From Streptomyces sp. NBC_01260 (lineage in GTDB: Bacteria; Actinomycetota; Actinomycetes; Streptomycetales; Streptomycetaceae), in assembly GCF_036226405.1 (NCBI RefSeq), contig NZ_CP108464.1, positions 248,001-312,000 on the forward strand: a stretch of DNA of 64,000 nt, read 5' to 3'. The translations under genes were made by a program, and so were the position numbers. Position 1 is the stretch's first letter. Each line of letters opens with the position of its first letter. The notes beneath the pieces were generated by a model, which had not been told where the DNA came from, ran no database searches, and saw only the letters and a program-made list of their open reading frames with translations. Of the stretch, positions 4,876-46,229 are shown one piece after another.

Positions 4876-4894
4876 TTAGCAGTTAAGCAGCTAT
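4876..4894 (-). promoter_or_regulatory. Palindromic operator, TTAGCAG family, copy A (GH101)
   Basis: Read on the minus strand the site is ATAGCTGCTTAACTGCTAA. It shares CTTAACTGCTAA exactly with the best copy at 46211. It sits directly upstream of the GH101 start, where a bound protein would block transcription or initiation. The likely regulator is the FadR-type protein encoded at 5984. Confidence 0.75.
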
Positions 4895-5269
4895 GTCCAC
4901 TAGATCTCGCACACTTCAAGTTCGAGCGGCACTCGGTGACAACTGGCGGCTGAGCCAGTTGTCTTCGGCGTGCACGATCACCAATTCACAGCCAGGCCTT
5001 GTTGGTGGCAGCCGTCACCCGCCGGCGCACTGGGGCATCCGAGAGGTGGCGCCGAGCTGAGCAGTTCGGATCGCGGCCGACTTCGCGAAAGGCGATGTAG
5101 GTAGCGTTCTTGCGTGAGCCCGCGCGCAGGCGCCGCAGCCGGAGGGCGGAGGAGACGGCGCCTTACCGTACGGAGATGGCCACCCGCATCGGGTATGGCA
5201 ACTGGGACTCGATCAGTTCTAAGCCGATGACGCTGCGGCCGCCCTCGCTGAAGAGGGTGTCAATGTGGA
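4895..5269. other. Intergenic stretch without a recognised gene
   Basis: Between the GH101 promoter and the dehydratase remnant no reading frame has recognisable protein similarity. It probably holds the GH101 promoter and older decayed sequence continuous with the remnants that follow. Confidence 0.5.
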
Positions 5270-5520
5270 CGTGTTCGGCCTGCTTGGTGGGCCGGTTGGC
5301 CCGCGCTGGTCTTCGACACCCTGCAGGAGTGCACGACACTGGCCGACGACCCGGACCTCGAGGCGCACCGCCGACACCGTCCTGGCCGTCCGTGGCATGG
5401 GGCCGTGCGCCTGTCGCGCCATGCCCGAAGCGGGCAATCTGCCACTCCCCCGCAAGGCCCTGGAAGTCGACGTCAACGAGACGTCGGCCTGGCTGCGCCC
5501 GCCGAAGCCCCTTCTGGGCC
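5270..5520 (+). pseudogene. Remnant of an IlvD/Edd-family sugar-acid dehydratase
   Basis: Read across frameshifts, this stretch encodes GPALVFDTLQE, then LADDPDLE, then TADTVLAVRG, then AMPEAGNLPLPRK. These match in order the C-terminal half of the intact dehydratase at 36250-38010 (GPALVFDSIED, AEDSTLDVSAETVLIVRN, GMPEVGNLPLPKK). At least two frameshifts and loss of the whole N-terminal half make it non-functional. It lies just before a KDPG-aldolase remnant and a FadR-type regulator, so an old galactonate-type catabolic operon probably decayed here. Confidence 0.75.
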
Positions 5521-5584
5521 GCCCGTCTCCACAGCCGGTCGTGCTGGCCTGCGGCCGCTGGAACGGCTCGCCGCCGACGCCGGA

Positions 5585-5765
5585 AGCGCCACGGAGATCA
5601 TGGCTGCGCTGGAGGCAGGGCCGGAACGCTGAAGCTGTTCCCCGCCCGCGTTCACGCCGGCCGTGCTGCGCGTTCCGCTGCAGGCGCCCCGGGCGCCAGT
5701 GGTTCCCACCGGCGGCATCAGCGTGGCTTCCGCACCCAAGCGGATCACCGCCGTTGCGGAGGAAA
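5585..5765 (+). pseudogene. Remnant of a KDPG/KDPGal aldolase
   Basis: The pieces ATEIMAALEAG, LKLFPA and APVVPTGGIS occur in order but in shifted frames. They match STPTEMVRALEEG, DALKLFPAS and APVLPTGGV of the intact aldolase at 33676-34305. LKLFPA contains the Schiff-base lysine of the family. A frameshift separates EAG from LKLFPA, and the N-terminal half is missing. Together with the preceding dehydratase fragment it represents a degraded duplicate, or predecessor, of the pathway encoded at 33.7-38 kb. Confidence 0.72.
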
Positions 5766-5983
5766 GGGGGAGGCGCCCTCACGTCGAACTCCGAAGGGGC
5801 ACCCTGCGTGGCGTCCTCGCGTCGGTCGACGCCTCATGCCGGCACGACGGTGGGACGGCGAGGACGGCGGGCATCCGAGGTCGCTTCAGCGAGGGACCAC
5901 GATCGAGGGCACTGCACCGGAGCAGGTCGAACGCCCGGCAGTAGGCTGATGCCGCCCAGCAGCATCCTCGAAGGAGTCCCGAC

Positions 5984-6685
5984 GTGGCAGTGCGCCGCAC
6001 CACGCTGTTCGATCAGGTCGCAAGCGAGATCATCACGCTGATCGAGGAGTCCGACCTGAAGCCCGGCGACGAGATCCCGCCGGAGGGCGAACTGGCTGCC
6101 CGGTTCGGGGTGAACAGGCTCGCGGTCCGTGAGGCGATCCGGGCCCTGGCCGCGCGGGAGATCCTCGTCTCCAGCCAGGGCCGGCGGGCTCGCGTGAATG
6201 TGCCGACCGCACGCGTTTTCGGTCAGATCCTGGGGTTCCGGCTGCGCCAGCAGTCGCTGCGCTTCGAGGATGTGCTGGACGCCCGTGGCGCGGTCGAAGG
6301 GGCCATGGCCTCGCGCGCGGCGGTGCGTGTGGGTGCGGGAGCGGCGTCCACGGACGCTGCCACCGCACTGCTGGAGAAGATGGAGGAGGCGGTCGACGAC
6401 CGCGACCGCTTCGTGGCGCTCGACCTCGCGTTCCACCACGAGATCGCCAGGACGGCCGACAACGGCATCCTGGAGCTCGTTTTGGAGTCCCTCGGTGATG
6501 TCCTGACCGAACACCGGCTGGCCAGTTACGACGGCCGTTCCCTCCATGGCGAGAGCCAGCAGGACACGATCACTGCCCACCGCGCAATCCTGGACGCCAT
6601 CACTGCGGGCGATCCCGAGGGGGCTGTCGCAGCCATGGCGGCACACCTGACGGAGACGGGTGAGGACTTGGAGATCACGCCGTAA
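5984..6685 (+). CDS. FadR/GntR-family transcriptional regulator with FCD domain
   Basis: 233 residues. The winged helix-turn-helix lies at about residues 8-75 (PPEGELAARFGVNRLAVREAIRAL is the GntR core, here spanning about 47-70) and the FCD ligand domain at about 95-225. FCD metal/ligand residues are suggested by DLAFHHEIA and the later HRAI and AAHL segments. The GTG start is supported by AAGGAG 8 nt upstream. FCD regulators commonly sense sugar acids or other carboxylates; DgoR of galactonate metabolism is an example. It lies after remnants of dehydratase and aldolase genes and between two copies of the 19-bp palindrome (4876 and 6795). It is therefore the first candidate to bind that element and control GH101, the following importer, GH2 and the SDR. 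That link is an inference. Confidence 0.85.
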   Translation: MAVRRTTLFDQVASEIITLIEESDLKPGDEIPPEGELAARFGVNRLAVREAIRALAAREILVSSQGRRARVNVPTARVFGQILGFRLRQQSLRFEDVLDARGAVEGAMASRAAVRVGAGAASTDAATALLEKMEEAVDDRDRFVALDLAFHHEIARTADNGILELVLESLGDVLTEHRLASYDGRSLHGESQQDTITAHRAILDAITAGDPEGAVAAMAAHLTETGEDLEITP

Positions 6686-6794: not shown

Positions 6795-6813
6795 TTGACA
6801 GCTTAGCTGCTAA
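6795..6813 (+). promoter_or_regulatory. Palindromic operator, TTAGCAG family, copy B (CUT1 importer)
   Basis: TTGACAGCTTAGCTGCTAA differs from the 46211 copy at four positions. Its first six bases are also a perfect -35 hexamer (TTGACA), so a bound regulator would cover the promoter of the importer operon that starts at 6864. Confidence 0.75.
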
Positions 6814-6863
6814 GCGGCCAATGTGCAGACCACTCGGAGCTGTCCTACTTCAGGGGATGTCGC

Positions 6864-8183
6864 ATGACCAGACGCTTCACCCAGCACGCCGGAGTCGCCG
6901 TTGGACTCGTGCTCACTGCCATCGCCCTCACCTCCTGCGGCTCTGGCGGCAGCAGCGAGACCTCCAAGGACAAGGCAGACGGCTCGTCCGTGACGGTGGA
7001 CTTCTGGGGCTGGGCCCACGGGTACGCCGAGGCGGTCGAGGCCTACAACGCTTCCCACCCCGACGCCAAGGTCACCTTCACCACCACGCCGCCCGGCTCC
7101 AAGGGCGGGTACACGAAGATGTTCTCCGCGGTGTAGGCCGGCAACGGACCGTGTCTCGCGCAGATCGGCTACGAGTCACTCCCGAGCTTCATGGTCGAAG
7201 GCGCACTGATGGACGTCGCCAAGTACACGGGCGACACCAAATCGCAGTTCGTCGACTGGTCCTGGAACCAAGTCAGGCTCGGCAACGCCGTGTACGGCGT
7301 CCCTCTCGACACCGGTCCGATGGCCATGTACTACCGCAAGGACATCTTCGACAAGCACAAGATCCCGGTACCGGCGACCTGGGAAGCGTTCCGCGGCGCC
7401 GCCGAGAAGCTCCACAAGGCCGACCCGACGGCGTATGTCGCCAACCTGGCGCCCGGCCCCGACTACAACCTTGCTGGTCTGTCCTGGCAGAACGGTGGGA
7501 AGTGGTTCTCGATCGAGGGCGATGCCTGGAAGGTCGACATCGACGGCCCGAAGACCCGGAAGGTCGTGTCGTACTGGCAGGACCTCGCCGACCGCGGGCT
7601 CGTCATCAAGGACGAGGCGTTCGGCCCCAAGTTCTTCAAGAACCTCCAGGACGGCAAGGTGGCGACGTGGGTCTCCGCCGTCTGGGCCTCCCCCATTATC
7701 CAGGAGAACGCCAAGGCCTCGGCCGGCAAGTGGGCGGTCGCACCCATGCCGCAGTGGACGCCGGGCGGCAAGTCCTACGGCAACGAGGGCGGTTCCAGCA
7801 CGGCGGTCCTGAAGGGCTGCAAGAACCCGGAGAAGGCGCTGCAGTTCGCCACGTGGCTCGCCACCACGCCGGAGAGCCTGAAGATCCTCATCCCCAAGAC
7901 CGGTATCTACCCGGCGTCCAAGGCGGGACTTGAAATGCCGGAGGTGAACAAGGCGGAGCCGTTCTTCGGCGGTCAGGAGATCTACGACGTGTTCCGTGAG
8001 TCCGCAGCCGGGACCGATACCTCGTGGCAGTGGGGTCCGACCACCACCCAGATGACGGCCGATCTGAACGACTCCTTCGGCAAGGCCCTCACCAGCGGCG
8101 GAAGCCTCGGTGACGCTCTGGGCCAGACCCAGAAGAAGACTGTCGCCGGGCTCGAGGCCAAGGGCCTCACCGTCACTGAATAG
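6864..8183 (+). pseudogene. CUT1 sugar-binding lipoprotein gene interrupted by an in-frame TAG
   Basis: The reading frame begins with a lipoprotein signal (LTSCG lipobox, Cys at about residue 25) and the start of a family-1 solute-binding protein (VTVDFWGWAHG). It then hits TAG at 7134-7136 (codon 91). The same frame resumes immediately with AGNGPCLAQIGYESLP and runs to 8183 with the rest of a normal binding protein (439 sense codons in all). No indel is needed; CAG, AAG or GAG changed to TAG would explain it. Permease genes follow intact. A Met at 7191 could restart translation but would yield a cytoplasmic protein without signal or N-lobe. The ligand is unknown; next to GH101 and under the same operator, a Gal-GalNAc-type disaccharide is plausible. 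Could also be a sequencing error. Confidence 0.85.
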
Positions 8184-8191
8184 TCCCCCGC

Positions 8192-8242: not shown

Positions 8243-9142
8243 GTGAGCCCGGCTAAGGCCCCACACAGGAGAGGCGCGACAGCCGTACTGCTGCTGCCCT
8301 TCCTTGCGTTCTTCACCCTCGTCTACCTCGTGCCGATCGGGTACGCGGCCTATCAAAGTCTCTTCCGCACCCAGCGCTCCGGCCTCGGCCTCGCCCCACC
8401 GACGACCGTCTTCAGCGGAATCGACAACTACCTCAAGGTCCTGAGCGACAGCGCCTTCCTCACCGGAGTAGGCCGCGTCCTGCTCTCCGGTGCGGTGCAG
8501 GTACCGCTGATGCTCGGTTTCGCCCTGCTCCTCGCGCTGCTGCTGGACAGCGGAGCCGCGAGATTTGCCAAGTTCTTCCGTCTGGCCTACTTCCTGCCCT
8601 ACGCCATCCCCGGAGTCATCGCGGCCATCCTCTGGTCGTTCCAGTACGTGAAGGGCATCAGCCCGCTCCTCGACGGCCTGGCTGCACTGGGCATCGACGC
8701 CCCGCTCCTCAAGCCCGGCTGGGTCCTCGCCTCGATCGGCAACATCGTGACCTGGTCCTGGACCGGCTACAACATGCTGGTTCTCTACACCGCGCTGCGG
8801 GCGATACCCAAGGAGCTCTACCAGGCCGCCCAGCTCGACGGCTGCGGTGACCTGCGCATCGCCTGGCACATCAAGATCCCGTTGGTGCGGCCCGCACTGA
8901 TCATGACCGGCGTCTTCTCGATCATCGGCACTCTCCAGCTCTTCAACGAGCCGTCAGTGCTGAAGCCGGTCGCGGCCGGTTCGATCGACACCGGCTACAC
9001 CCCGAGCATGCTGGCCTACCAGGCAGCCTTCGGCGCGAACGACTACAACATCGCGGCCACCATCGCGGTCGTCCTCGCCCTCACCACGGCAGTGCTCTCC
9101 TTCACCTTCCTCAAGCTTTCACAGCGAGGTACGACATCGTGA
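8243..9142 (+). CDS. CUT1 ABC sugar importer, inner-membrane permease 1 (MalF type)
   Basis: 299 residues with about six hydrophobic spans. The cytoplasmic EAA loop is seen as ELYQAAQLDGCGDLRIA followed by IPLVRP (about residues 192-218); this loop docks the ATPase. The GTG start is chosen because AAGGAG lies 5 nt upstream. It overlaps the next permease by 4 nt (GTGA), implying coupled translation. No ATPase gene follows; in Streptomyces such permease pairs usually use the shared ATPase MsiK, which is encoded elsewhere. The N-terminal alanine/arginine-rich tail is normal for the family. Confidence 0.9.
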   Translation: MSPAKAPHRRGATAVLLLPFLAFFTLVYLVPIGYAAYQSLFRTQRSGLGLAPPTTVFSGIDNYLKVLSDSAFLTGVGRVLLSGAVQVPLMLGFALLLALLLDSGAARFAKFFRLAYFLPYAIPGVIAAILWSFQYVKGISPLLDGLAALGIDAPLLKPGWVLASIGNIVTWSWTGYNMLVLYTALRAIPKELYQAAQLDGCGDLRIAWHIKIPLVRPALIMTGVFSIIGTLQLFNEPSVLKPVAAGSIDTGYTPSMLAYQAAFGANDYNIAATIAVVLALTTAVLSFTFLKLSQRGTTS

Positions 9143-9975
9143 TCCCTCGCCGCCATCAGGTCCTGACCACGGCCCTGCTGTCCGTGGTCGCCTGCTACTT
9201 CCTGCTGCCCGTGTGGTGGCTGATCGTCTCGGCCGGCAAGTCCAGCTCGGACCTCTTCGCCACCAACGGCCTGCTCCCGGCAGACGATTTTGCCCTCGCG
9301 GACAACGTGCGGGCCGTCTTCACCTGGGACCACGGCATCTTCGCCGACTGGATGGTCCATTCGCTGCTGTACGCGGTGCTCGGCGCCGCCGCCGCCACGC
9401 TGCTCTCCGGCGGGGCGGGATACGTCCTGGCGAAGTACGCCTTCCGGGGCCGCGAAGTCGTCTTCTCCGTGATCATCGCGGCGGTACTCGTCCCTATTCC
9501 GCTGCTCACGCTGCCGCTCTATCTGGTTTTCGCCGAGCTGCACCTCACCGACACCGTGTGGTCGGTGCTGATACCCAGCGCGGTCAGCCCGTTCGGCGTG
9601 TACCTCGCGCGGATCTATGCGGCGGACTCGGTACCCAACGAGATCCTGGAGGCCGCCCGCGTGGACGGCGCGGGCGAGCTGCGCATCTTCTTCCAGATCG
9701 TCACCCGGCTCATGTCCCCCGGCCTGGTGACCGTGTTCCTCTTCCAGTTCGTGGCGATCTGGAACAACTTCTTCTTGCCACTTGTGATGCTGTCCGACCA
9801 CCACAAGTGGCCGGCCATCCTGGGCCTCTTCTACTGGAACAGCCAGCCACTGCAGCTCTACTACAACATCACCATCACCGGCGCGCTGATATCTGTGCTC
9901 CCGCTGGTCCTCGCGTTCCTGACCCTGCAGCGCTACTGGCGCTCGGGACTGAGCGCGGGCAGCGGCAAGCTGTAA
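9139..9975 (+). CDS. CUT1 ABC sugar importer, inner-membrane permease 2 (MalG type)
   Basis: 278 residues with about six membrane spans. The EAA loop is EILEAARVDGAGELRIF with a following LMSPGL (about residues 170-195). The GTG start overlaps the stop of permease 1 in a GTGA junction. It forms the translocation channel with permease 1. With the binding-protein gene interrupted, this importer would lack its substrate receptor unless a paralogue substitutes. A short hairpin follows two bases after the stop codon and ends the operon. Confidence 0.9.
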   Translation: MIPRRHQVLTTALLSVVACYFLLPVWWLIVSAGKSSSDLFATNGLLPADDFALADNVRAVFTWDHGIFADWMVHSLLYAVLGAAAATLLSGGAGYVLAKYAFRGREVVFSVIIAAVLVPIPLLTLPLYLVFAELHLTDTVWSVLIPSAVSPFGVYLARIYAADSVPNEILEAARVDGAGELRIFFQIVTRLMSPGLVTVFLFQFVAIWNNFFLPLVMLSDHHKWPAILGLFYWNSQPLQLYYNITITGALISVLPLVLAFLTLQRYWRSGLSAGSGKL

Positions 9976-11940: not shown

Positions 11941-12669
11941 TCAGGCGCCGCCCTCGTACCGGTGGAGATGTCGCCCGAGGCTGAGCTCCAGATGCTCGCG
12001 CATGGCCTCTTCCGCCCTTTCGGGGTTGCGCCGGAGCACCGCTCGCAGGATCCGGCTGTGCTCTACGGCCGTGGCGGGGCTGCCGCCCGTGACCGGACTG
12101 AGCCGGAAGAGGTGGAGGTGCGTATGCAGCCGCTCCACCGCGGCAGCGAGCAGCGTGCGCCCCGAGGCGGAGGCGAGCGCGTCGTGGAAGCGTTGGTCCA
12201 GAACGGCGAAGCGGCCGTATACGGCGAAACTGTGGCCCTGGTCGGGCAGGCCCTGCATCTCCTCCACCAGACTCTCGATCCGGTCGAACACGGCGTCGTC
12301 GGCCTGCTCCGCGGCCAGAGCCGCGGCCCGCGGCTCCAGAAGGAGCCGCATTTCGAAGAGTTCCTCCACGTCCCGGCGGTCCAACAGCTCGGTGGCACGG
12401 TAGCCCGCCAGTGACCGCTTGAGGACCAGGCCGTCCGCCTCAAGGCGGGCCAGCGCCTCGCGCACAGGGGTAGGTGAGACGCCGAGCGATCGGGACAGCG
12501 CCTCAATGCCGACGCGGGCACCCGGCTGGATCACGTGGTCCATCACCATCGCCTTGACGGCCTCGTAGACGCTGTCGCCCAGCACCTCGCGCTTCACCGT
12601 AACGTCGGCGCGCCGCTCGGTGGCGGCGAGCGGGACGGACTCCGACCCTTCGATGTTGTTTACCGGCAT
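11941..12669 (-). CDS. GntR-family regulator (FCD/VanR type), probable regulator of the L-fucose operon
   Basis: 242 residues. The N-terminal winged helix (about 28-95) contains IEALSRSLGVSPTPVREAL; the FCD domain (about 105-230) follows, with LDQRFHDAL and EHSRILRAV carrying its metal-type residues. It is divergent from the fucose operon, with 236 nt between the start codons. A perfect GAATC-N6-GATTC palindrome lies 29 nt upstream of its own start and a second copy lies just before the operon. Autoregulation plus control of the operon is therefore likely. The regulator at 24070 is a close paralogue with nearly the same DNA-reading helix. The effector is unknown; L-fuconate or its dehydration product would fit. 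Confidence 0.88.
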   Translation of the reverse strand: MPVNNIEGSESVPLAATERRADVTVKREVLGDSVYEAVKAMVMDHVIQPGARVGIEALSRSLGVSPTPVREALARLEADGLVLKRSLAGYRATELLDRRDVEELFEMRLLLEPRAAALAAEQADDAVFDRIESLVEEMQGLPDQGHSFAVYGRFAVLDQRFHDALASASGRTLLAAAVERLHTHLHLFRLSPVTGGSPATAVEHSRILRAVLRRNPERAEEAMREHLELSLGRHLHRYEGGA

Positions 12670-12697
12670 AGCATCACTCTCTTCCCCCAGGCTCCAA

Positions 12698-12713
12698 GAA
12701 TCCTATGCGATTC
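12698..12713. promoter_or_regulatory. GAATC-N6-GATTC operator, copy 1 (regulator promoter)
   Basis: GAATCCTATGCGATTC is an inverted repeat with 5-bp arms. It is followed by AAC and is nearly identical to the copy at 12874 over more than 16 bp, including the non-palindromic CTAT. It lies 29 nt upstream of the GntR start. Confidence 0.8.
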
Positions 12714-12873
12714 AACAGGACCCGATCCCGGAAGGCCACACGACACCAGGTCGGGATCCCGCTCGACGCAGGGTAGGCGGGCAGCTCACAACGGAATGAA
12801 CCCACCTCGCCCGAAATAGCCGATGCGCAGGCCTTGACGCGGCGATCCCCTCTCCCGCACGATCTCGGCAACG

Positions 12874-12889
12874 GAATCCTATCTGATTC
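12874..12889. promoter_or_regulatory. GAATC-N6-GATTC operator, copy 2 (fucose operon promoter)
   Basis: GAATCCTATCTGATTC, followed by AAC, ends 16 nt before the binding-protein start codon. It would overlap the transcription start or leader, a typical repression position. It pairs with the copy at 12698 across the divergent promoter region. Confidence 0.8.
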
Positions 12890-12905
12890 AACTGAGGCAA
12901 TGATC

Positions 12906-13994
12906 ATGATCCTTCGTAGATCCGCAGTGTCCGCCGTCGCCACCGTCGCCCTCCTGGCCCTCGCGTCGACGGCATGCACCGTGAAGTCCTCCGACGACAC
13001 CGGGCCGGCCGACACCGCAACCGCCAAGACAGGCAAGGGAAGCGCCGAACTCGCCGACGGTTCCGGCACCAAGATCGCCCTCGTACCGGGTGGCGCCCAC
13101 CCGTACTTCCAGCCGTGGAAGCAGGCGGGCGCGGATGCCAAGAAGACGCTGAAGCTGGGCGACGTCACGCTCGACGAGACCGCCGAGTGGGACCAGCAGA
13201 AGCAGAACAACCTGCTGTCGACCCTGGCCGCACGCGGTTACAACGCCTTCGGCGTCTTCGGGGTGTCCCCCACCGACATCAACACCACCTTCGCTGACCT
13301 CAAGTCCCAGGGTTTCGCGGTGGCCTCCCTGGGCTCATGCCCCGCCGGCGGCAAGAACGAGGCCGATTTCTGCCTCTCCACCGATGTGGAACTCGCCGCT
13401 TACAAGGCGGCCAAGGCCACCATCGAGGCGATGGGCGGCAAGGGCACGCTCGTTCACCTGACGGGCAACAACGTCGACGCCAACACGCAGCTGCGGATCA
13501 AGGGCGTGGAGAAGGCGGTGAAGGAGTCCGGCGGCAAGGTCGACCTGCTGCAGAACATCACCGATATCGACAAGGACCTCCAGACCGCACAGAAGGCCGT
13601 TTCCGACCTGCTCGCGACCAAGGGCTCGCGGATCCAGGGCATCGTCTCGACCGCGTACAACCCGGCGGTTGCCGCCGCTGAGGCGGTCCAGGAGACCGGC
13701 TCGAAGGCCAAGGTCGTGGCCATCGACGACGACGCCAAGATCCTCTCCTCGATCAAGAACGGATCGGTGAGCGCCACGGTCGTACAGAACCCGGTGGGTC
13801 AGGCCGAGATCGGATCCTGGGCGCTCGCGCTCCTGCAGACCAAGCAGTGCACGATGAAGCAGCCGGGCCAGATCGCCGACTCGGGTTCCTTCGTCGTCAC
13901 GAAGGAGAACGTCGGCACCTACGACGAGGCACGCAAGGCCAAGACGGCGGAGCTGAAGAAGCAGTTCGCCGACGAGTACCTCTCCTGCGGCTGA
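12906..13994 (+). CDS. Sugar-binding lipoprotein of a ribose-type (CUT2) ABC importer, probable L-fucose
   Basis: 362 residues with a lipoprotein signal (LALASTAC) and a family-4 (periplasmic-binding protein type 1) fold: IALVPGGAHPYFQ at the start of lobe 1, DDDAKILSSIKNG near the hinge, and VVQNPVGQAEIG. ATG 12906 is preferred over the in-frame ATG at 12900 because GAGG (12893-12896) is then 9 nt upstream. First gene of an eleven-gene operon with a pathway for L-fucose, so L-fucose or a related 6-deoxy sugar is the expected ligand. It is exported and lipid-anchored outside the membrane. Confidence 0.88.
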   Translation: MILRRSAVSAVATVALLALASTACTVKSSDDTGPADTATAKTGKGSAELADGSGTKIALVPGGAHPYFQPWKQAGADAKKTLKLGDVTLDETAEWDQQKQNNLLSTLAARGYNAFGVFGVSPTDINTTFADLKSQGFAVASLGSCPAGGKNEADFCLSTDVELAAYKAAKATIEAMGGKGTLVHLTGNNVDANTQLRIKGVEKAVKESGGKVDLLQNITDIDKDLQTAQKAVSDLLATKGSRIQGIVSTAYNPAVAAAEAVQETGSKAKVVAIDDDAKILSSIKNGSVSATVVQNPVGQAEIGSWALALLQTKQCTMKQPGQIADSGSFVVTKENVGTYDEARKAKTAELKKQFADEYLSCG

Positions 13995-14031
13995 CCGGCC
14001 CGGCACAACGACAGAAAGTCAGCACACGCGC

Positions 14032-19130: not shown

Positions 19131-19204
19131 GCCGCCGGCCCTGGTCCCCCGCACACCCGAACCATCCAGCGGCGCCGGCGCGCCGCTCCCGCAAGGAGAA
19201 CCAC

Positions 19205-20056: not shown

Positions 20057-20063
20057 GGCCGGC

Positions 20064-24786: not shown

Positions 24787-24928
24787 CCAGATCCCCTCAC
24801 TCCACTACACGTGCGACCACCAGCAGCTTAGCGAGGCGGGAACGAGCTGCCCCGGACACTGCCTCTTGCCCGGAGCCGGAGTTCCGTTCCCGCCATCGCA
24901 CCCACTGCGGTCCGGCCACCCCTCCCTG

Positions 24929-24944
24929 GAATCCCATAGGAAAC
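24929..24944. promoter_or_regulatory. Possible degenerate fucose-operator (GAATC-N6-GAAAC)
   Basis: GAATCCCATAGGAAAC, followed by AGG, matches the two good operators at the left arm, the AT of the spacer and three of five right-arm bases. It lies between the divergent GntR (24786) and GH95 (25114) genes. Moderate support only. Confidence 0.4.
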
Positions 24945-25003
24945 AGGCATGGATGACCGCTATTCATTGGAGACATTTTGCCTTTTTAGGACAGAGTAAT
25001 CTT

Positions 25004-34345: not shown

Positions 34346-35299
34346 TCAGCGGATGACGGTTTCAGCGTTGGTGCCGGTGAAGGCGGCCAGGGCGCGGTCG
34401 AGACCGACGCGGTCAGGCATTCCGTCCGTGTCGGTCGGACACTGGACGACCAGCGCCGCGACAGCGGCGGCCTGGCGCAGGCACTGGCCGGTGTCGGAGG
34501 CGTGCAGCAGCCCGGAGAGGAACCCTGCGGCGAAGGCGTCCCCCGCGCCCACCGGGTCGGCGACCGGCACGGGGAAGGCGGGCTGGTGGCAGGCTTCTGC
34601 CGTGCGGGTGAGACAGGTGGCCGACTTGTCCCGGTGCTTGACGACGAGCGTTCCGAGGCCCGTCTCGAGCAGGGAGGCCGGGTGCGGTACACCCAGCAGC
34701 TCCAATTCGTCCTCGCCTGCCAGCACCACGTCCGCGTGGGCCAGGAGAGGGCCGACGACCTCGCGCCAGCGGTCGGGTGAGCCGAGCTTGTGGCGGATGT
34801 TCGGATCGAACGAGACCGTCGCACCGGCGGCTCGCGCCAGTTCGACGAGGCGCAAGGTGGCCCGGTGCGCCGAATCCGACAGCATTGGGGTGATGCCGGT
34901 GATGTGGACGAGTCGCGCCCCCTCGAACATGCGGGACTCCAGTTCGTCCGGGGACATCCGGGAGGCGGCTGAGCCCGTACGCAGATACTGCACGTCGATG
35001 GCGCGCGCCGGATGGCTGTCGCGCATGAGGACTCCGGTCGGAGCCTCGGGGTCCGTTATGGCGTACGAGCTGTCCACGCCTTGCGCACGGAGCTGTGCAA
35101 GCACGGCCCGCCCTGCCGGATCGTCACCGACGCGACCGAGCCACCGGACGGTGTGTCCGAGCCGGGCAAGGCCCGCCGCCACATTGCTCTCGGCGCCCGC
35201 GACGGAACGCCGGAACGCGAGCGCGTGTTCCAGCGGGACCCCCGGTTCGGCCAGCAGGAGGAGCATGGCCTCTCCGCACACGACGACTTCGGCGCTCAT
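34346..35299 (-). CDS. 2-keto-3-deoxygluconate/galactonate kinase (PfkB family)
   Basis: 317 residues, PfkB/ribokinase fold: N-terminal VVVCGEAMLLLLAEP, GAESNVAAGLARLG, FDPNIRHKL and the C-terminal signature DPVGAGDAFAAGF with the catalytic Asp in GAGD. It phosphorylates a 2-keto-3-deoxy aldonate with ATP. The start at 35299 overlaps the stop of the DHDPS-family gene by 4 nt (ATGA). It could act on KDG or KDGal; the sequence does not separate these. Confidence 0.88.
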   Translation of the reverse strand: MSAEVVVCGEAMLLLLAEPGVPLEHALAFRRSVAGAESNVAAGLARLGHTVRWLGRVGDDPAGRAVLAQLRAQGVDSSYAITDPEAPTGVLMRDSHPARAIDVQYLRTGSAASRMSPDELESRMFEGARLVHITGITPMLSDSAHRATLRLVELARAAGATVSFDPNIRHKLGSPDRWREVVGPLLAHADVVLAGEDELELLGVPHPASLLETGLGTLVVKHRDKSATCLTRTAEACHQPAFPVPVADPVGAGDAFAAGFLSGLLHASDTGQCLRQAAAVAALVVQCPTDTDGMPDRVGLDRALAAFTGTNAETVIR

Positions 35300-36240
35300 C
35301 GGGCCAGCTCCGGCACCTGGGGGGCGAACTCGGCGCAGAAGCGGTCGATCATCTTCAACTCTTCCTCGTCGAGCCGGTACCCCGGGGCCCGGCAGTGCGC
35401 AGACGCAATCCAGCCACGGCGCACGGAGATCTCCTTCTCCACGGCGATGATGAGCTCCACGCTCTGCATCCAGTACGAGAGGTAGGGCAGCATCCGGGTG
35501 TGCAGGGCGACGGCCTCGGCCTCGTCGCCGCACTGCCAGTGCTCCCAGAGTTCGACGTACAACTCGGTGAAGGAGCAACCGGGCTGGACGCCGACCGCCC
35601 CGCGGCGCAGGGCGTCCGGCAGTTGCAGACCGGCGTAGCCGATCAGTGAGGGCAGCGGACGGGGACCGGCGGCCAGAGCCGCGATCAGCCGGCCCGGCGG
35701 GGCGGACTCGACCTTGACCCAGCGCAGATTGGGGTGCTCGGCGGCCAGCCGGTGCAGGGTGGGTGCGTCCAGCGCCGTTCCGGTCTGTGCCGGGGCGTAC
35801 TGCACCACAACGGGCAGTGGATCGACGGCGGTGAGTACCTCGCGCAGATGGGCCGAGACGGCGTCCTTGGAGGGCGCGAGGAAGTGGGGCGGGAGCAGGT
35901 TGATGGCGTCGGCACCGAGTTCGGCGGCCCGGAGCGCTTGGCGGACCGCGGCCCGGGTGGCGTGGTCCGGGACGGAGACGATGGCGGCGACATCCTGGCG
36001 GTTCCGGGTCTGCTGGAGCAGCAGTCCGGTGAGCAGTTCCCGCTCTTCGGGGTCGAGTTTGTGGAACTCGCTCGCGAAACCGGGGAACATCAGCGAGCTC
36101 ACCCCTGTCGCAAGTACCCGGTCCACCACCGTGGTGAATCCGTCGGGGTCGAGCTCTCCGTCGTCGTGGAACGGAACCTCCAGTACGGGCGAGACTCCTC
36201 GGACCAGTGTGTCGAGGTCCTTGTGTACGGGTGTGGCCAT
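35296..36240 (-). CDS. DHDPS-family enzyme, probable 2-keto-3-deoxy-sugar-acid aldolase or dehydratase
   Basis: 314 residues, DapA/NanA fold. Lys176 (RWVKVES) is the Schiff-base lysine and Tyr148 (VVQYAP) the partner tyrosine. LMFPGFASEFHKL replaces the GTTGE segment of true DapA, so lysine synthesis is excluded. Members beside IlvD/Edd dehydratases are 2-keto-3-deoxy-pentonate dehydratases or retro-aldolases giving pyruvate and an aldehyde. It lies 9 nt after the dehydratase gene and overlaps the kinase gene, so the operon appears to hold both a non-phosphorylating and a phosphorylating route. AGGA precedes ATG 36240. Confidence 0.85.
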   Translation of the reverse strand: MATPVHKDLDTLVRGVSPVLEVPFHDDGELDPDGFTTVVDRVLATGVSSLMFPGFASEFHKLDPEERELLTGLLLQQTRNRQDVAAIVSVPDHATRAAVRQALRAAELGADAINLLPPHFLAPSKDAVSAHLREVLTAVDPLPVVVQYAPAQTGTALDAPTLHRLAAEHPNLRWVKVESAPPGRLIAALAAGPRPLPSLIGYAGLQLPDALRRGAVGVQPGCSFTELYVELWEHWQCGDEAEAVALHTRMLPYLSYWMQSVELIIAVEKEISVRRGWIASAHCRAPGYRLDEEELKMIDRFCAEFAPQVPELAR

Positions 36241-36249: not shown

Positions 36250-38010
36250 TCAGAAGGCTTGTCGGGGCGGGGGCGAGTCGGTCGCGCCGACGAGGAAGTC
36301 GAGGTCGGCGCCGGTGTCGGCCTGCGTGACGTGTTCGGTGTAGAGATAGGTCCAGCCACGGGTGACCGGCGGTTTCGGCGGCTGCCACGCGGAGCGCCGA
36401 AGGTCCATCTCGGTCTCGTCGATCAGCACGTCGAGCCGTCGGCCGGGCACGTCAAGTCTGACCTGGTCTCCGGTGCGGACGAACGCCAGCGGACCGCCGA
36501 CAGCCGCCTCCGGTGCCACATGCAGCACGCACGTTCCGAAGGCCGTTCCGGACATGCGGGCATCGGATACGCGGACCATGTCCCTGATCCCGGCGTCGAG
36601 CAGCTTCTTCGGCAGTGGCAGGTTGCCCACCTCGGGCATGCCCGGATATCCGCGGGGGCCTGTGTTGCGCACGATGAGCACCGTCTCGGCGGAGACGTCG
36701 AGCGTGGAGTCCTCGGCGACGGCGAGGTAGTCCTCGATGGAGTCGAAGACGAGGGCGGGGCCTGTGTGGTCCAGCAGGTGCGGCGCGGCGGCCGACAGCT
36801 TGATGACGGCACCGTCCGGGGCGAGGCTGCCGCGCACCACGGCGGTCCCTCGTCCTGCGGGCAGCACCGGGTTGTCGAAGGCCCGGATGACCTCACGGTC
36901 GTACACCTGCGCACCCTGGCAATTGGCTGTCAGGGAACGGCCGGTGACCGTCACCGTGTCCTGGTGCAGGGCGTCCCGAAGGTCGTTGACGAGCGCCGGC
37001 AGCCCTCCGGCGTAGGCGAACTCCTCCATCAGGAACCGCCCGGAGGGCATCAGGTCGATGAGCAGCGGAAGTTCGGCGCCCAGGCGGTCGAAGTCGTCGA
37101 GTTCCAGGGGTACGCCCAGTCGGCCGGCCAGGGCGAGCAGGTGCACCACCGCGTTGGTGGACCCGCCGATCGCCGCGTTGATCCGGACGGCGTTCTCGAA
37201 GGCTGCTCGCGTCATAATGCGCCGGGGGGTGAGGTCGCTTCCCGCGAGTGCCACGGCACGTGCGCCGGTCTCTTCGGCCAGTGTGCCGCGCCGGGCGTCC
37301 ACGGCCGGCAGCCCGGAGCCGCCTGGCAGCATCATGCCCAGGGCCTCCGCCAGGCAGGCCATGGTGGACGCCGTACCCATGGTCATGCAGTGACCCGCGG
37401 AGCGGTTCAGGGACGACTCGAACTCGGTGAACTCCTCCTGCGTGATCGTCCCCGCGCGCAGCTCTTCCGTCATCCGCCAGATGTCCGTGCCGGAACCCAC
37501 GTGTCGGCCCTTGAACCGGCCGTTGAGCATGGGGCCGCCGGTGAGGACGATGGCGGGCACACCGGCGCTGGCGGCACCCATCAGCGCGGCGGGCGTGGTC
37601 TTGTCGCACCCGGTGAGCAATACGACGGCGTCGATCGGATTGGCCCGGATCTGTTCTTCGATCTCCATGGCCGCCAGGTTGCGGTAGAGCATCGACGTCG
37701 GCCGCAGGAAGGGTTCGCCGAGAGACATGGCAGGAAATTCCAGGGGGAAGCCGCCCGCCTGCAGCACTCCACGCTTCACGGCGTCGGCGAGGATCTGCAA
37801 ATGGCCGTTGCACGGGGTCAGTTCGGAGAACGTGTTGCAGATGCCGATGACCGGGCGGCCGTCGAAGTTGTGGCCCCCCCGCCCCATGGCTCGCAGGTGG
37901 TGACGGGCGATGAAACCGTTCTTGCCGCCGTCACCGAACCAGGCACGGCTCCGGAGTGGCTCTCGAGGTGTGACGGGAACTGCGGCTGACGGTGTCTCTC
38001 GCTCTGCCAT
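36250..38010 (-). CDS. IlvD/Edd-family sugar-acid dehydratase
   Basis: 586 residues. Fe-S ligand regions are ICNTFSELTPCNGHL, LTGCDKTTPAALMGA and SAGHCMTMGTASTM; VSDARMSGT is the conserved C-terminal signature. WFGDGGKNGFIARHHLR at the N-terminus is typical of the aldonate dehydratases (L-arabinonate, D-galactonate, D-fuconate, xylonate) rather than of valine/isoleucine IlvD. It converts an aldonate to a 2-keto-3-deoxy aldonate. ATG 38010 has GGAGG 8 nt upstream; upstream in-frame sequence has no family similarity. It begins the operon 36250 to 33676 and is divergent from the sugar importer. Confidence 0.92.
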   Translation of the reverse strand: MAERETPSAAVPVTPREPLRSRAWFGDGGKNGFIARHHLRAMGRGGHNFDGRPVIGICNTFSELTPCNGHLQILADAVKRGVLQAGGFPLEFPAMSLGEPFLRPTSMLYRNLAAMEIEEQIRANPIDAVVLLTGCDKTTPAALMGAASAGVPAIVLTGGPMLNGRFKGRHVGSGTDIWRMTEELRAGTITQEEFTEFESSLNRSAGHCMTMGTASTMACLAEALGMMLPGGSGLPAVDARRGTLAEETGARAVALAGSDLTPRRIMTRAAFENAVRINAAIGGSTNAVVHLLALAGRLGVPLELDDFDRLGAELPLLIDLMPSGRFLMEEFAYAGGLPALVNDLRDALHQDTVTVTGRSLTANCQGAQVYDREVIRAFDNPVLPAGRGTAVVRGSLAPDGAVIKLSAAAPHLLDHTGPALVFDSIEDYLAVAEDSTLDVSAETVLIVRNTGPRGYPGMPEVGNLPLPKKLLDAGIRDMVRVSDARMSGTAFGTCVLHVAPEAAVGGPLAFVRTGDQVRLDVPGRRLDVLIDETEMDLRRSAWQPPKPPVTRGWTYLYTEHVTQADTGADLDFLVGATDSPPPRQAF

Positions 38011-38106
38011 GTATGAGCCTCCGATGGGGTACGGCCACGCGGTTCCGACCGCTTGAGACCGGGCTGTGACCGTGCAGGGGCTTGCCCTGCCGACGGATTT
38101 AATGAT

Positions 38107-38125
38107 GCTATCAAATGACGATAGC
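38107..38125. promoter_or_regulatory. GCTATC-N7-GATAGC palindrome upstream of the dehydratase operon
   Basis: Perfect 6-bp arms separated by AAATGAC, in an AT-richer stretch 97 nt before the dehydratase start and about 300 nt before the divergent importer. It is a candidate operator for the GntR protein at 32849. The rest of 38126-38425 shows no gene. Confidence 0.55.
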
Positions 38126-38425
38126 GCCTCGGGGGCCGCGCGAGGCTGTCGCTGAAGCGGAGGTTCAACCCGTGGTACGTAAGGCGCCGGTGCGGCTCGT
38201 CCGCCTCCTGACCTTTGGCGTACCGCCTGTCGCGATCTTCGGAACCCGTCCGTCGGACACCAGCGGACCGGCCCCCGCCCATCCACACACCGATGTACGA
38301 AGCCCGGCGCCCTCCGCGCAACGGGCGAGCACACCGACGTGACCCGGAACCACCGGATCAGTCCTCACCACACGGCCCCGACAGCACGATGCGCGGCGGT
38401 CACTGCCAGCTCGAAGGAGCTCCTC

Positions 38426-42294: not shown

Positions 42295-42313
42295 ATAGCA
42301 GCTTAGTTGTCAA
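42295..42313 (+). promoter_or_regulatory. Palindromic operator, TTAGCAG family, copy C (GH2)
   Basis: ATAGCAGCTTAGTTGTCAA matches the 46211 copy in its left half (AGCAGCTTA). Read on the other strand it begins TTGACAACTAAGCTGCTA, like copy B. It ends 12 nt before the GTG start of the GH2 gene and abuts its ribosome-binding site (AAGAAGGG). Confidence 0.75.
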
Positions 42314-42325: not shown

Positions 42326-45300
42326 GTGACGTTCTCGCACAGCAGCACGCCTTCGGAACACACCGGCCCCGCCGCAAAGGCAGGAGGGTTCAGCCGCCGC
42401 GGTGTGCTGAAGAGCCTGGCAGCAGCGGGATTCCTCGCCGTAGCAGGTGATGTCTTCCTCGCCGCACCCGCCCATGCCGCCACCGCTCCGCCCGTGATCC
42501 CGCCCCTTCCCGAGACGGTCTCCGGGGTAAGCAACCCGCGCGTTCCCGTCACCTCCGGATGGCGCTGGACATCCAGCCCTCCGGCATCGTTCTGGACATC
42601 CGGCACCGACACCTCCTCGTGGCACCCGCTCGACGTACCCGGCGAACCGGCCCTGCAGAACCAGTCCGTCCCCTCGGACACCGAATGCGCGTACGCGGTC
42701 GAGGTCACCGTTCCGGCGGATTTCGCGGGCAAGCGCGTCATGCTCCGCTTCGACGGCGTCTACAGCTATGCCCGGCTGTGGGTCAACGGCACTGCCGTAC
42801 GCACCCACGACGGCGGCTTCACCACCTGGTACGCCGACATCACCTCCCTGGTGACACCGGGCCGCGCGGCCGTCGTCACCCTCGGCGTCACCGACCGGCC
42901 GACCAGCATCGCCGGCCAGTCCAACTACGCGCACCACATCATCGGCGGCATCCTGCGCGATGTCACCCTGGTCGCCCTGCCGGCTTCCCACCTCACGAGG
43001 CTGCACGCCGACACGACCTTCGACAGCGCGTACCGGGACGCCACGCTCACCGTGACGGCGGCCGCCTCGTTCCAGACGGGCCAGAGCGGAACCGCCACGC
43101 TCACCCTCACCGACCCCGAGGGCCGGACAGTCGCGATCACGCCGTCGAAGATCGACCTGACCGGCACGGATCCGCAGCAACAGGCCGTGATCCCGGTCAA
43201 GGCTCCCCTCAAATGGGACGCGGAACGCCCCCACCTCTACACCCTGACGGCTGAGTTCACCGCCGGGGGCGTGACCCAGACGGTGACCCGGAAGGTCGGG
43301 TTCCGTCAGGTCAAGGTCGAGGGAAACAAGTTGGTGGTCAACGGCAGCCCCGTACATCTGCTGGGCGTCTGTCACCACAGCATCACGGAGAAGCAGGGCC
43401 GTTCGACCAGCCCGGCCATGGAGGAGCAGGCCGCCCGGCTCTACAAGGAGGCGAACTGCAACTACATCCGCACCTCGCACTACCCGCCGACACCCGCGCT
43501 GCTCGACTGGGCCGACCGTCTCGGACTCTACGTCGAGGTCGAGGCGCCCGTCTGCTTCCAGCAGAGCACCGTCGACGACCCTGCCTACACCGAGCAGTAC
43601 ATGACGCAGTTCGCCGAGATGATCGAACGCGACCGCAGCCACCCCTGCGTGATCGAGTGGTCCGTCGGCAACGAGAGCGGTATGGGCCGCAACTTCGCCT
43701 CGGAGAACACCTACGCACACGAGACGGACCCGTCACGTCCCACGGTCTTCGAGGACATGGGCCAGAGCAACGGCGGCAATCAGACCGACATCTACAGCGG
43801 TCACTACCCCAACCTCCAGAACGCCAACGGAAACGCCAAACAGCCCATCCAGTACGGCGAGTTCGCCCATGTGCCGTGCTACAACGTGGGGACCCTGAAG
43901 GAAGACCCCGGGGTGCGCGACTTCTGGGGCCACAGCATCGCGAAGCTGGCGGACAAGTTCCGCACCACGGACGGAGTCGTGGGCGGCGCCATCTGGGCGG
44001 CCATCGACGAGGTGTTCCACCTGGCCAACGGGCCTGTGGGGTACGGCGAGTGGGGCATCATCGACCTGTGGCGCCGCCGCAAGCCCGAATTCTGGCTCAC
44101 GCAGAAGGCCTTCTCACCGGTCCAGATCGCGGACGGTGTCCTCACCGGTATGACGCCGGGCGGGGCGATACGGGTACCCGTCAAGAACTGGCACGACCAC
44201 AGCAACCTCGGCGAGCTGAAGGTCGGCTGGCAGATCGGCGACAGGTCGGGCACCCTCCAGGGCGTCGATGTCGCTCCCCGGCAGAGCGGCACCCTGACCG
44301 TCCCGGGCGGCGCCTGGTCGCCGGGCGACACCCTGCGACTCACCTTCCGGCGTGGCACGGCGCTCATCGACGAGTACCGGCTGTGGCTGAACACCCGGGC
44401 AACGCCGTCCTTCCCCAGCGACAGCGGCAGGGCGCCCGCCGTGAGCGAGACCGCGGACACGATCACCGTCTCGGGTACCGACGCCCCGTTCACGCTGGTG
44501 TTCGACAAGCGCACCGCACGGCTCGTCGAAGCGACCGCCGACGGCAAGGTGATCCTGACGAGTGGCCCGGACCTGGTGATCTCCCGTGCTGTTCCCGGCC
44601 AGTGGGCGGGAACAGCGGCGAGCGTGGCCACGACCGACGGCAAGGTGACCGTCACCCTGAAGGGGCACTTCGGCACCATCGACACCACCATGACGGTGGC
44701 CGTGAGCCCCCGCGGACTGCTGACCACGACCTACACGCTCGCCAATCCCGGCTCCGGCCAGATGAGCGACGTCGGCGTACGGTACGTCCTCGCCGACGGG
44801 ACGGACACCCTGAGCTGGCAGCGGGACGCCCAGTGGACGGCGTACCCCGACGACCACATCGGCCGGGCCTCCGGCACCGCGACCCGGAACCGGGCCTCCG
44901 GCGCCGACGGATACCGTACGAAGCCGGACTGGTCGTGGTCCCAGGACACTCACAGCTACTTCCTGTTCGGCAAGGACAGCGCCGCACACTGGACCAATGA
45001 CTTCCGCAGCGCCAAGGCGAACGTCAGGGTCGCCAAGGCCACCACGGGCGCGGCAGGACCGGGTGTACAGGTCGAGTCGGACGGCACCCACTCGGTCAGG
45101 CTGGCGCCGATGGAGCCGGCACTGATCGACGACGCATCCCCGGACATCGTCTACACGGGCTCCTGGACCCACGCGGACACGAGCTCGGGTTACACCGCCG
45201 GAGACCTGTTCGGCACGGAATCCTTCACAGACGCGGCGGGAGCGGCGGCGGAGCTGTCGTTCACGGGCACCGGCGTCGGCCTGTACTCCGCCCGGGCGGA

Positions 45301-46051
45301 CAACCTCGGCATCGTGAAGATCTCGGTGGACGGCAAGCCCGCGGAAACGGTCGACCTCTACGGACCGGGGAAGGCTCCGGCCCAGCTCGTCTTCCGGAGC
45401 GCATCGCTGGCGTACGGCCGGCACACCGTCAAGGTGGAGTGCACCGGCACCAAGAACGCCTCGTCGAAGGGGGCCTTCGCGCTCATCGACGCGTTCCAGG
45501 TGGTGGACCCGGTCATCGACGACGCGTCTGAGCAGGTCATCTACTCGGGGTCATGGACGCACGCGGACTCGACCGAGTCGTGGACGGCCGGCGATCTCGG
45601 GCGCACCGAATCCTTCAGCAGAACCTCAGGTGACACGGCCACCGTCAGGTTCTGGGGCACAGGCATGCGCGTCATCTGCGCCAAGGGCCCGAACGAGGGA
45701 ATCGCCGAGATCTCCGTCGACGGCGGGACCACCACCGAGGTGGACCTCTACGCATCGGGAAAGCGGTACCAGCAACGAGTTTTCGAACGCACTGGCCTGA
45801 CCGAGGGCGAGCACATCGTCAGCGTGCGGGTGACCGGCCGCAAGAACTCCTCCGCGACGGACTCCCATGTGGTCCTCGACGCGTTCGAGACGCTGACGGG
45901 CGACGCGTTCCCGCGCCGGGCTCCCGGGGTCGCTCTGATCGTCAGCGCCCGGATCAACTACCCCGACCTGGCCTGGGGGAACTACATCGATCCTGCGATC
46001 ACGCTGCCTGCCGGCTGGAGCGGCACGGCGCGGGTGCGACTGCTGCCCTGA
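42326..46051 (+). CDS. Secreted GH2 glycoside hydrolase (beta-galactosidase-like) with two C-terminal tandem modules
   Basis: 1241 residues with a twin-arginine signal (FSRRGVLKSLAAAGF). GH2 sugar-binding, immunoglobulin-like and barrel domains cover about residues 50-620. Glu450 (VGNESG) is the acid/base and Glu512 (IQYGEFAH) the expected nucleophile. GVCHHSITEKQGR and RTSHYPPTPALLD are typical of beta-galactosidases. A small beta domain follows, then two copies of a module of about 128 residues (about 934-1062 and 1064-1190) sharing GSWTHAD, TAGDL, TESF, ISVDG, VDLY and a final DAF; these look like carbohydrate-binding jelly rolls. The GTG start follows AAGAAGGG. Inferred to release galactose from exported or extracellular glycans; beta-glucuronidase or other GH2 activities are not excluded. 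Confidence 0.88.
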   Translation: MTFSHSSTPSEHTGPAAKAGGFSRRGVLKSLAAAGFLAVAGDVFLAAPAHAATAPPVIPPLPETVSGVSNPRVPVTSGWRWTSSPPASFWTSGTDTSSWHPLDVPGEPALQNQSVPSDTECAYAVEVTVPADFAGKRVMLRFDGVYSYARLWVNGTAVRTHDGGFTTWYADITSLVTPGRAAVVTLGVTDRPTSIAGQSNYAHHIIGGILRDVTLVALPASHLTRLHADTTFDSAYRDATLTVTAAASFQTGQSGTATLTLTDPEGRTVAITPSKIDLTGTDPQQQAVIPVKAPLKWDAERPHLYTLTAEFTAGGVTQTVTRKVGFRQVKVEGNKLVVNGSPVHLLGVCHHSITEKQGRSTSPAMEEQAARLYKEANCNYIRTSHYPPTPALLDWADRLGLYVEVEAPVCFQQSTVDDPAYTEQYMTQFAEMIERDRSHPCVIEWSVGNESGMGRNFASENTYAHETDPSRPTVFEDMGQSNGGNQTDIYSGHYPNLQNANGNAKQPIQYGEFAHVPCYNVGTLKEDPGVRDFWGHSIAKLADKFRTTDGVVGGAIWAAIDEVFHLANGPVGYGEWGIIDLWRRRKPEFWLTQKAFSPVQIADGVLTGMTPGGAIRVPVKNWHDHSNLGELKVGWQIGDRSGTLQGVDVAPRQSGTLTVPGGAWSPGDTLRLTFRRGTALIDEYRLWLNTRATPSFPSDSGRAPAVSETADTITVSGTDAPFTLVFDKRTARLVEATADGKVILTSGPDLVISRAVPGQWAGTAASVATTDGKVTVTLKGHFGTIDTTMTVAVSPRGLLTTTYTLANPGSGQMSDVGVRYVLADGTDTLSWQRDAQWTAYPDDHIGRASGTATRNRASGADGYRTKPDWSWSQDTHSYFLFGKDSAAHWTNDFRSAKANVRVAKATTGAAGPGVQVESDGTHSVRLAPMEPALIDDASPDIVYTGSWTHADTSSGYTAGDLFGTESFTDAAGAAAELSFTGTGVGLYSARADNLGIVKISVDGKPAETVDLYGPGKAPAQLVFRSASLAYGRHTVKVECTGTKNASSKGAFALIDAFQVVDPVIDDASEQVIYSGSWTHADSTESWTAGDLGRTESFSRTSGDTATVRFWGTGMRVICAKGPNEGIAEISVDGGTTTEVDLYASGKRYQQRVFERTGLTEGEHIVSVRVTGRKNSSATDSHVVLDAFETLTGDAFPRRAPGVALIVSARINYPDLAWGNYIDPAITLPAGWSGTARVRLLP

Positions 46052-46106
46052 CAGCGGTCGGCTTCGCACCACAGACCGGGACAGCCGTTCGGGCCGCAGC
46101 ACACTC

Positions 46107-46150
46107 CGAGGCCATGACCGCCCACTGTGCGGTGGGCGGTCATGGCCTCG
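46107..46150 (+). terminator. Strong 19-bp terminator hairpin after GH2
   Basis: CGAGGCCATGACCGCCCAC pairs perfectly with GTGGGCGGTCATGGCCTCG across a 6-nt loop, 56 nt after the GH2 stop. It separates the GH2 transcript from the SDR promoter. Confidence 0.85.
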
Positions 46151-46210
46151 GCCGCAGGGTCCACAGGGGTCCCGGCCGTGGTGGCGCTCCCCGCAAGGAC
46201 CATCATCGAC

Positions 46211-46229
46211 TTAGCAGCTTAACTGCTAA
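46211..46229. promoter_or_regulatory. Palindromic operator, TTAGCAG family, copy D (best copy, SDR promoter)
   Basis: TTAGCAGCTTAACTGCTAA has perfect 7-bp arms, TTAGCAG and CTGCTAA, around 5 bp. It is the most symmetrical of the four copies, in an AT-rich patch 127 nt before the SDR start. Confidence 0.82.

Follow-up and report, generated by a model that had tools for sequence, protein, structure and literature searches.

The palindrome TTRRCAGCTWAGCTGYYAA is very probably the operator of a small clade of FadR-subfamily repressors, represented in Streptomyces sp. NBC_01260 by two paralogs (REG1 and REG2), which would run a regulon for the use of galacto-N-biose/lacto-N-biose (GNB/LNB)-type sugars and be released by a carboxylate made in the pathway. 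Our analysis starts from a stretch of 64,000 nucleotides (the window; contig NZ_CP108464.1, positions 248,001 to 312,000), and coordinates without a prefix count from its first letter. The sites, their conservation, their co-occurrence with the regulator clade and the gene families were computed; from these we infer physical binding, repression, ligand and substrate.

Putative operator sites and the regulators beside them

The sites and the regulator gene of the window are as follows:

4876..4894, no strand: putative operator of GH101, 9 nt before the GH101 ATG
6795..6813, no strand: putative CUT1-importer operator, lengthened to 6821 by a third half-site at an 8-bp offset
42295..42313, no strand: putative operator of GH2, 12 nt before the GH2 GTG
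46211..46229, no strand: putative operator of the SDR, a near-perfect palindrome
5984..6685, + strand: REG1, GntR/FCD (FadR-type) regulator and candidate binder (PF00392, PF07729)

A preliminary description of the window had reported the four palindromes as a dispersed regulon that chance would hardly produce, with no further copy in the window. Their coordinates were confirmed in the sequence. A search with the seed at up to three mismatches recovered three of them, with 0.00 expected (100 shuffles), well above anything that chance would give. With 5 of 19 positions unlike the seed, the site at 42295 was recovered only with a degenerate pattern or a matrix; it is more diverged, yet the same matrix fits it. 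With a matrix built from the six sites of this genome, the four score 29.5 to 34.5 bits, and the best non-overlapping 19-mer elsewhere in the window reaches 5.2 bits, so no further copy is present there.

The whole-genome scan that the description had proposed returned few strong copies rather than many random ones. A degenerate pattern derived from the four window sites gave seven matches on each strand at ≤1 mismatch, compared with none on either strand for the reversed-pattern control; the extra pair in this count is a match at window position 6803 that overlaps the 6795 site. At ≤2 mismatches the real and control counts are alike (7/9 versus 7/5, forward/reverse), so the excess lies wholly in the strong sites and weak matches alone mean nothing. 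The six strong palindromes in the 9.28-Mb genome are the four window sites, one at C1:242834, 5.2 kb beyond the left end of the window, and one at C1:7615354. Both of the latter score, with a matrix made from the window sites only, at levels expected ≤0.046 times each per 9.28 Mb. The notion of a dispersed regulon is thus supported, but its extent has to be revised from four sites to six, one of them 7.3 Mb distant.

That distant site points to the regulator. REG1 carries an N-terminal GntR winged helix (PF00392, 2e-15) and a C-terminal FCD domain (PF07729, 2.9e-24), which places it in the FadR (FCD) subfamily, and REG2 (C1:7614595-7615287) has the same two domains. When the genome was searched with REG1, 23 matches were found including REG1 itself; REG2 is the closest paralog (52% identity, 204 bits), and the third-best match reaches 62 bits at 32% identity (one short match has 41% over 61 residues). 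The C1:7615354 site lies between an SDR paralog and the divergent REG2 gene, whose start is 66 nt away. The sole distant site of this genome thus adjoins the sole close relative of REG1, which supports a link between the REG1 clade and the operator, and the two paralogs probably share it. The suggestion that the 5984 regulator is the best candidate binder therefore gains comparative support, both from this paralog and from the co-occurrence described below.

The arrangement recurs. REG2 starts 57 to 67 nt from an operator in all five REG2 loci examined (L011 of this genome, and G006, G026, G186 and G007). REG1-type genes lie directly behind an operator-bearing GH42-like gene in G003, G315 and locus L061 of G002, and at L062 of G002 a distance of 21 nt separates a REG1-type gene from an operator. 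The REG2 ortholog of G026 (L104:8687-9377) is split by a frameshift; both flanking operators are intact.

Conservation in relatives was assessed from a search for related loci, which returned nine loci in seven genomes; these genomes were then scanned whole. Ten distinct places with ≤1 mismatch on at least one strand occur in five of the seven, all five Streptomyces. A comparison of orthologous promoters, also proposed in the preliminary description, places 10/10 directly before regulon orthologs: GH101, GH42-like/SDR and SBP (solute-binding protein) in G001; GH42-like/SDR and SDR/REG in G002; GH42-like/SDR in G003; GH2 and REG2/SDR in G006; and GH2 and GH42-like/SDR in G007. With the four-site matrix, 15 of 21 sites in relatives score at levels expected ≤0.046 times each per 9.28 Mb, although four of the 15 are not new in sequence, three being identical to a training site and one to the C1:242834 site. 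Among regions with only 2-mismatch places, five were inspected and those in G004, G005, G006 (two) and G001 (one) were left out. The inspected places (L064, L065, L067, L071 and L072) are likely background, with matrix scores below 22. This call is uncertain for L071:6612 (G007:C3:2376612), a 21.7-bit palindrome just behind a CUT1-type SBP gene (37% identity to the window SBP), and for the L065 site, which precedes an ABC ATPase gene (26 to 29%).

Across the genus, the sites track the regulator clade. In an even draw of 295 genomes, REG1 was found at E ≤ 1e-40 in four, and G026, whose frameshifted REG2 was found as two pieces in a REG2 search, was counted as a further regulator-bearing genome. 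Any match at ≤1 mismatch occurs in 28/295 genomes, and matches on both strands in seven (the discovery genome G000, G026, G168, G186, G283, G106 and G255). The site is present in 5/5 regulator-bearing genomes versus 2/290 others (Fisher P = 1.2e-9; 4.9e-8 without G000), a count that holds if REG2 is missing from the rest of the 295; REG2 was searched for in a draw of 392 genomes whose overlap with the 295 was not compared entry by entry. Seven regulator genomes came out of this search, all with the site. G315 and G320, outside the earlier draw, both carry it; G315 was found by its regulator, and the site was then seen between its SDR and GH42-like genes, with REG1 behind. Note that by coordinates G320 appears to equal G006 and G168 to equal G003, such that not all of these genomes are new.

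Architecture of the proposed operator and its reading

The operator departs from the form usual in its subfamily. FadR-subfamily operators are commonly A/T-rich palindromes with TKGT-N2/3-ACMA boxes, a trait that is common rather than defining, with NanR and BioR as exceptions; an Arg at position 28 of the helix-turn-helix (HTH) domain contacts the G of the box (PMC4494728). None of 27 sites (6 own, 21 from relatives) holds such a pair, and a lone TTGT or ACAA occurs in five, four of which are GH2 sites. HTH position 28 corresponds to REG1 residue 35 (the Pfam alignment places residues 10-71 on profile positions 3-64), and this residue is Gly in both paralogs. Among 58 homologs (own included) it varies between Gly (42), Ala (10), Ser (5) and Asn (1), and is Arg in none. 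Operator and protein therefore agree, the sites lacking the box pair and the proteins the Arg. Position 39 (residue 46) is Leu in 58/58, the recognition-helix residues of the clade are kept throughout the 58, and their combination EGEL...VNRL is found in 0/8 control FCD paralogs of the same genome, so that these residues separate the clade.

Because the motif reads TTAGCAGC-TTAGCTGC-TAA, the operator can equally be described as a direct repeat of 8 bp. Six of 25 sites, 6795-6821 among them, continue the repeat in register with a third unit (8-bp offset), compared with 1.5% of flanking positions; the 25 sites, being related, are not independent cases. Extra half-sites of lower strength have been reported for GntR regulators (PMC4494728).

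Placement suggests how such an operator would act. In this genome the sites precede the start codons of GH101, GH2 and the SDR by 9, 12 and 126 nt, and 50 nt separate the end of the importer site from the SBP ATG (6864). The GH101 spacing is 9 nt in 3/3 genomes with a site directly before GH101 (own, G001 and G283), and that of GH2 is 12 to 13 nt in the own genome, G006, G026, G186 and G007 (extrapolated from residue 7 in G007). A protein sitting on the GH101 and GH2 operators would probably mask the promoter or the start region, as expected of a repressor. A −10-like TANNNT directly behind the operator is seen in six site-gene pairs (five SDR, one GH42-like) and is not general.

The FCD metal residues D147, H151 and H199 are present in 58/58 homologs (own included) and H221 in 57/58. 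Such Asp/His ligands are typical but not universal, FadR itself being without them (PMC7674646). The best solved match of REG1 is a NanR (6on4, E = 1.8e-15); the DgoR structure 7c7e matches at E = 1.8e-9.

Proposed target genes and locus history

The genes of the proposed regulon in the window, and a relic beside them, are:

1069..4866, − strand: GH101, predicted endo-alpha-N-acetylgalactosaminidase, 1265 aa (Pfam, PDB match)
6864..8183, + strand: SBP gene, putatively of GNB/LNB type, with an in-frame TAG at 7134-7136; SBP_bac_1 in 7191-8183
8243..9142, + strand: CUT1 permease 1 (family matches)
9139..9975, + strand: CUT1 permease 2 (family matches)
35296..36240, − strand: DHDPS-family 2-keto-3-deoxy sugar acid enzyme, beside EDD (sequence match)
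36250..38334, − strand: IlvD/EDD sugar-acid dehydratase; homologs adjoin weaker sites in G001, G283 and G007
42326..46051, + strand: GH2 beta-galactosidase-like protein, 1241 aa (sequence matches)
46102..46161, − strand: remnant of the REG2 3′ end (~20 codons) within a hairpin-like inverted repeat (E = 9e-6)
46356..47111, + strand: SDR, proposed sugar dehydrogenase (family matches)

The targets had been read as serving the release, uptake and oxidation of galactose-containing glycans. A single sugar-use job is supported, but "galactose glycans" is better put as GNB/LNB use, given the matches of GH101, the SBP and a beta-helix protein. GH101 matches PF12905 at 1e-122 and, among solved structures, best the endo-alpha-N-acetylgalactosaminidase 2zxq (3e-149), with EngBF fusions at ~1e-146. 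In G001 and in G002 a single SBP gene matches both pieces of the window SBP, and the piece behind the stop has as its best solved match the GNB/LNB SBP 2z8d (6e-45; other sugar SBPs at 7e-41). Apart from the TAG the frame is open, and the TAG is either a recent nonsense change or a read error.

Behind the C1:242834 site is a 667-aa protein (L010:8881-10884; C1:242881-244884). It has no Pfam family at E ≤ 0.001 (open reading frame L010:8509-10884), GH42 included, no NCBIfam at 0.01 and no PDB sequence match to E = 1; its fold, modelled with confidence, appears GH42-like, possibly with the three-domain arrangement over the whole length. At E ≤ 1e-5 its family comprises 291 proteins including itself, with a Pfam domain in 0/120 listed, under names that include Streptomyces, Armatimonadota, Chloroflexi and Planctomycetes. 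Behind this gene lies that of the beta-helix protein. The chain that it matches best (1.8e-33) bears the name fibronectin type III domain-containing protein; after it come four chains called lacto-N-biosidase, at 1.5e-29 to 4.6e-19. The NCBIfam LnbX match of the beta-helix protein is far below the cut-off. Taken together, and as judged from their sequence matches, the targets read as a set that would release, take up, cleave and oxidize Gal-beta-1,3-HexNAc disaccharides.

Two further genes may extend the pathway. The best solved match of EDD is a dihydroxyacid dehydratase, followed by L-arabinonate dehydratase, and the DHDPS-family enzyme most resembles L-2-keto-3-deoxyarabonate dehydratase, with the KDGal aldolase YagE second. 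L-Arabinonate and D-galactonate share their configuration at C2-C4. EDD and GH101 diverge around sites in G001 and G283, and in G007 a weaker site lies between REG2 and EDD, behind which DHDPS and SDR homologs follow. A GH112 phosphorylase (PF09508) was not matched in G000, but the control search matched 0/14 genomes, and its absence is not established. Elsewhere in the window, 11941-27945 encodes enolase-superfamily dehydratases, an FAA hydrolase, an aldo/keto reductase, an amidohydrolase, an Rbs-type importer, GH95 and two FCD regulators of its own; from this gene set we take it to be an L-fucose-type oxidative cluster, and it holds no copy of the GNB/LNB-regulon operator.

The GH2-SDR segment has a history of regulator loss. 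Window 43900-47120 and C1:7612362-7616266 are 86 to 88% identical copies of one locus type, which in G006, G026 and G186 reads [site]GH2-REG2-[site]-SDR. From the window copy REG2 has been deleted, leaving the ~20-codon remnant and both operators; a weaker match (9e-5) falls on the other strand because of the inverted repeat. Conversely, the 7.6-Mb copy (L011:7312-11257, C1:7612312-7616257) keeps REG2, the site and the SDR (92% identical to the window SDR) and has lost the N-terminal 516 residues of GH2; short relics of EDD and ABC genes precede the GH2 fragment. Among those compared, the 7.6-Mb SDR, GH2 and REG2 are closest to G186, the window GH2 to G026 and G006, and the window SDR to the 7.6-Mb copy. 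These affinities suggest that the two copies were likely acquired separately, although this is not settled. If the REG1/REG2 clade controls them, the window GH2 and SDR are controlled in trans.

Alternatives, mechanism and known systems

Several observations weigh against a REG1/REG2-controlled GNB/LNB regulon. A matrix scan of the window found no site directly before REG1 itself, nor at the EDD promoter (best −7.9 bits). Regulator homologs in the Dactylosporangium and Actinomadura genomes have no strong site: the former has a weak 7.0-bit match 53 bp upstream, and the latter nothing above −1.5 bits in a 12-kb stretch. Six of the 21 sites in relatives are individually within chance (0.16 to 4.4 expected per genome) and rest on position; among these are the sites beside EDD in three genomes (G001, G283 and G007) and a site that precedes GH101 in G283. 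The palindromic matches of G106 and G255 occur without the regulator (2/290 genomes), with no regulon homolog in the 15- to 16-kb stretches around them. A same-species draft (84% complete) has neither regulator nor sites, so that the regulon looks accessory. As to function, the SBP gene is interrupted by a stop, so the importer may be inactive in this isolate; the specificity of the SDR is not settled by sequence; and the FCD metal residues also occur in most of eight control FCD proteins and single out no ligand. Lastly, binding of the operators by REG1 or REG2 is something that we infer from sequence comparison. As a side observation, the G255 palindrome (G255:C11:137016, L108:8016) reads ATGACAACTAAGTTGTCAT and is possibly the operator of another regulator.

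The sites could be read by a different protein, with the 5984 gene a bystander. The window holds three FCD regulators, and closely related proteins can bind different motifs (PMC4494728). We regard this as very unlikely, because the sites track the 5984/REG2 clade across genomes and the distal site adjoins the closest paralog of 5984 and none other of the 23 matches; the other two window FCD proteins (11941-12669 and 24070-24786) are rejected as binders on their promoter regions, which score −3.7 and −6.2 bits at best. More improbable still is that the sites are no operators but were simply carried along as mobile or duplicated DNA spread. The GH2-SDR segment (43900-47120) is indeed duplicated at 7.6 Mb with matching flanks, such that sites 46211 and 7615354 are not independent, but of the 15 pairs among the six own sites this is the only one to share flanking DNA (300 bp each side). 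The fixed distances to the GH101 and GH2 starts, and a symmetry that is kept while the letters vary, also argue for operators.

A division of labor within the clade deserves more weight, although we consider it unlikely: REG2 alone may control all six sites today, with REG1 vestigial or in another role, or the reverse. The position of REG2 beside an operator in five loci, where the window REG1 has no such site, speaks for it. Against it, REG1-type genes stand beside operators in G003, G315 and both G002 loci, those stretches showed no second regulator of the clade, and the recognition residues do not differ.

Under the shared-operator reading that we favor, a REG1 or REG2 dimer would sit on the operator and block the transcription start at the genes for secreted glycosidase, importer, galactosidase and dehydrogenase. 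GNB- or LNB-type disaccharides would be liberated by GH101 and the lacto-N-biosidase-like beta-helix protein, imported by the GNB/LNB-type CUT1 system and split by the GH42-like protein and GH2; the galactose would then be oxidized by the SDR and passed to the EDD dehydratase and the DHDPS-family enzyme. A galactose-derived carboxylate, most likely D-galactonate or a close relation, may bind the FCD metal site and release the repressor, a proposal based on the metal residues and the DgoR precedent. A fuller picture, which we put forward tentatively and as somewhat more likely to fail than to hold in every part, is that a clade without the GT-reading Arg reads TTRRCAGCTWAGCTGYYAA as palindrome and 8-bp direct repeat, on which two dimers could sit staggered; that two paralogs present in the same genome both use this operator and together govern a streptomycete GNB/LNB regulon with an undescribed GH42-like family; and that the GH2-SDR locus lost its local regulator and came under control in trans.

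In the literature searched (subscription papers and supplements lay outside it), we found no published account of the TTRRCAGCTWAGCTGYYAA operator and no published target of the REG1/REG2 clade. For this clade the analysis proposes an operator, a set of targets and a class of ligands that can be tested, and an exception to the usual FadR-subfamily operator comes with matching changes in the reading helix. The regulon also suggests how soil bacteria may use host-type O-glycan disaccharides, by a route that includes a GH42-like protein family, and the GH2-SDR locus shows clearly that operators can outlast the local loss of their regulator while a paralog is retained at another chromosomal position.

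The closest metabolic parallel is the GNB/LNB pathway of bifidobacteria, with which this regulon shares GH101, a candidate GNB/LNB-type SBP and a lacto-N-biosidase-like beta-helix protein, here under one operator; it differs in its FadR-type control, the GH42-like protein, the oxidative sugar-acid genes and perhaps the lack of GH112, which was not detected. Like the FadR-subfamily regulators DgoR, LldR, PdhR and NanR, REG1 and REG2 combine a GntR winged helix with an FCD domain, Asp/His metal residues and palindromic operators. Unlike them, they go with sites without a TKGT-N2/3-ACMA pair and have Gly, Ala, Ser or Asn at HTH position 28 and Leu at position 39 across the clade. Escherichia coli DgoR, a FadR-type repressor that acts on galactonate metabolism and whose sugar-acid pocket depends on a metal (PMC7674646), belongs to the same domain family; its similarity is low and its operator different, and REG1/REG2 would also control glycan release. 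HypR of Streptomyces coelicolor is likewise a Streptomyces FadR-type repressor with dispersed targets, but it acts on hydroxyproline genes through an unrelated motif, CTNTGC(A/C)ATGTCAC (PMC6608401).

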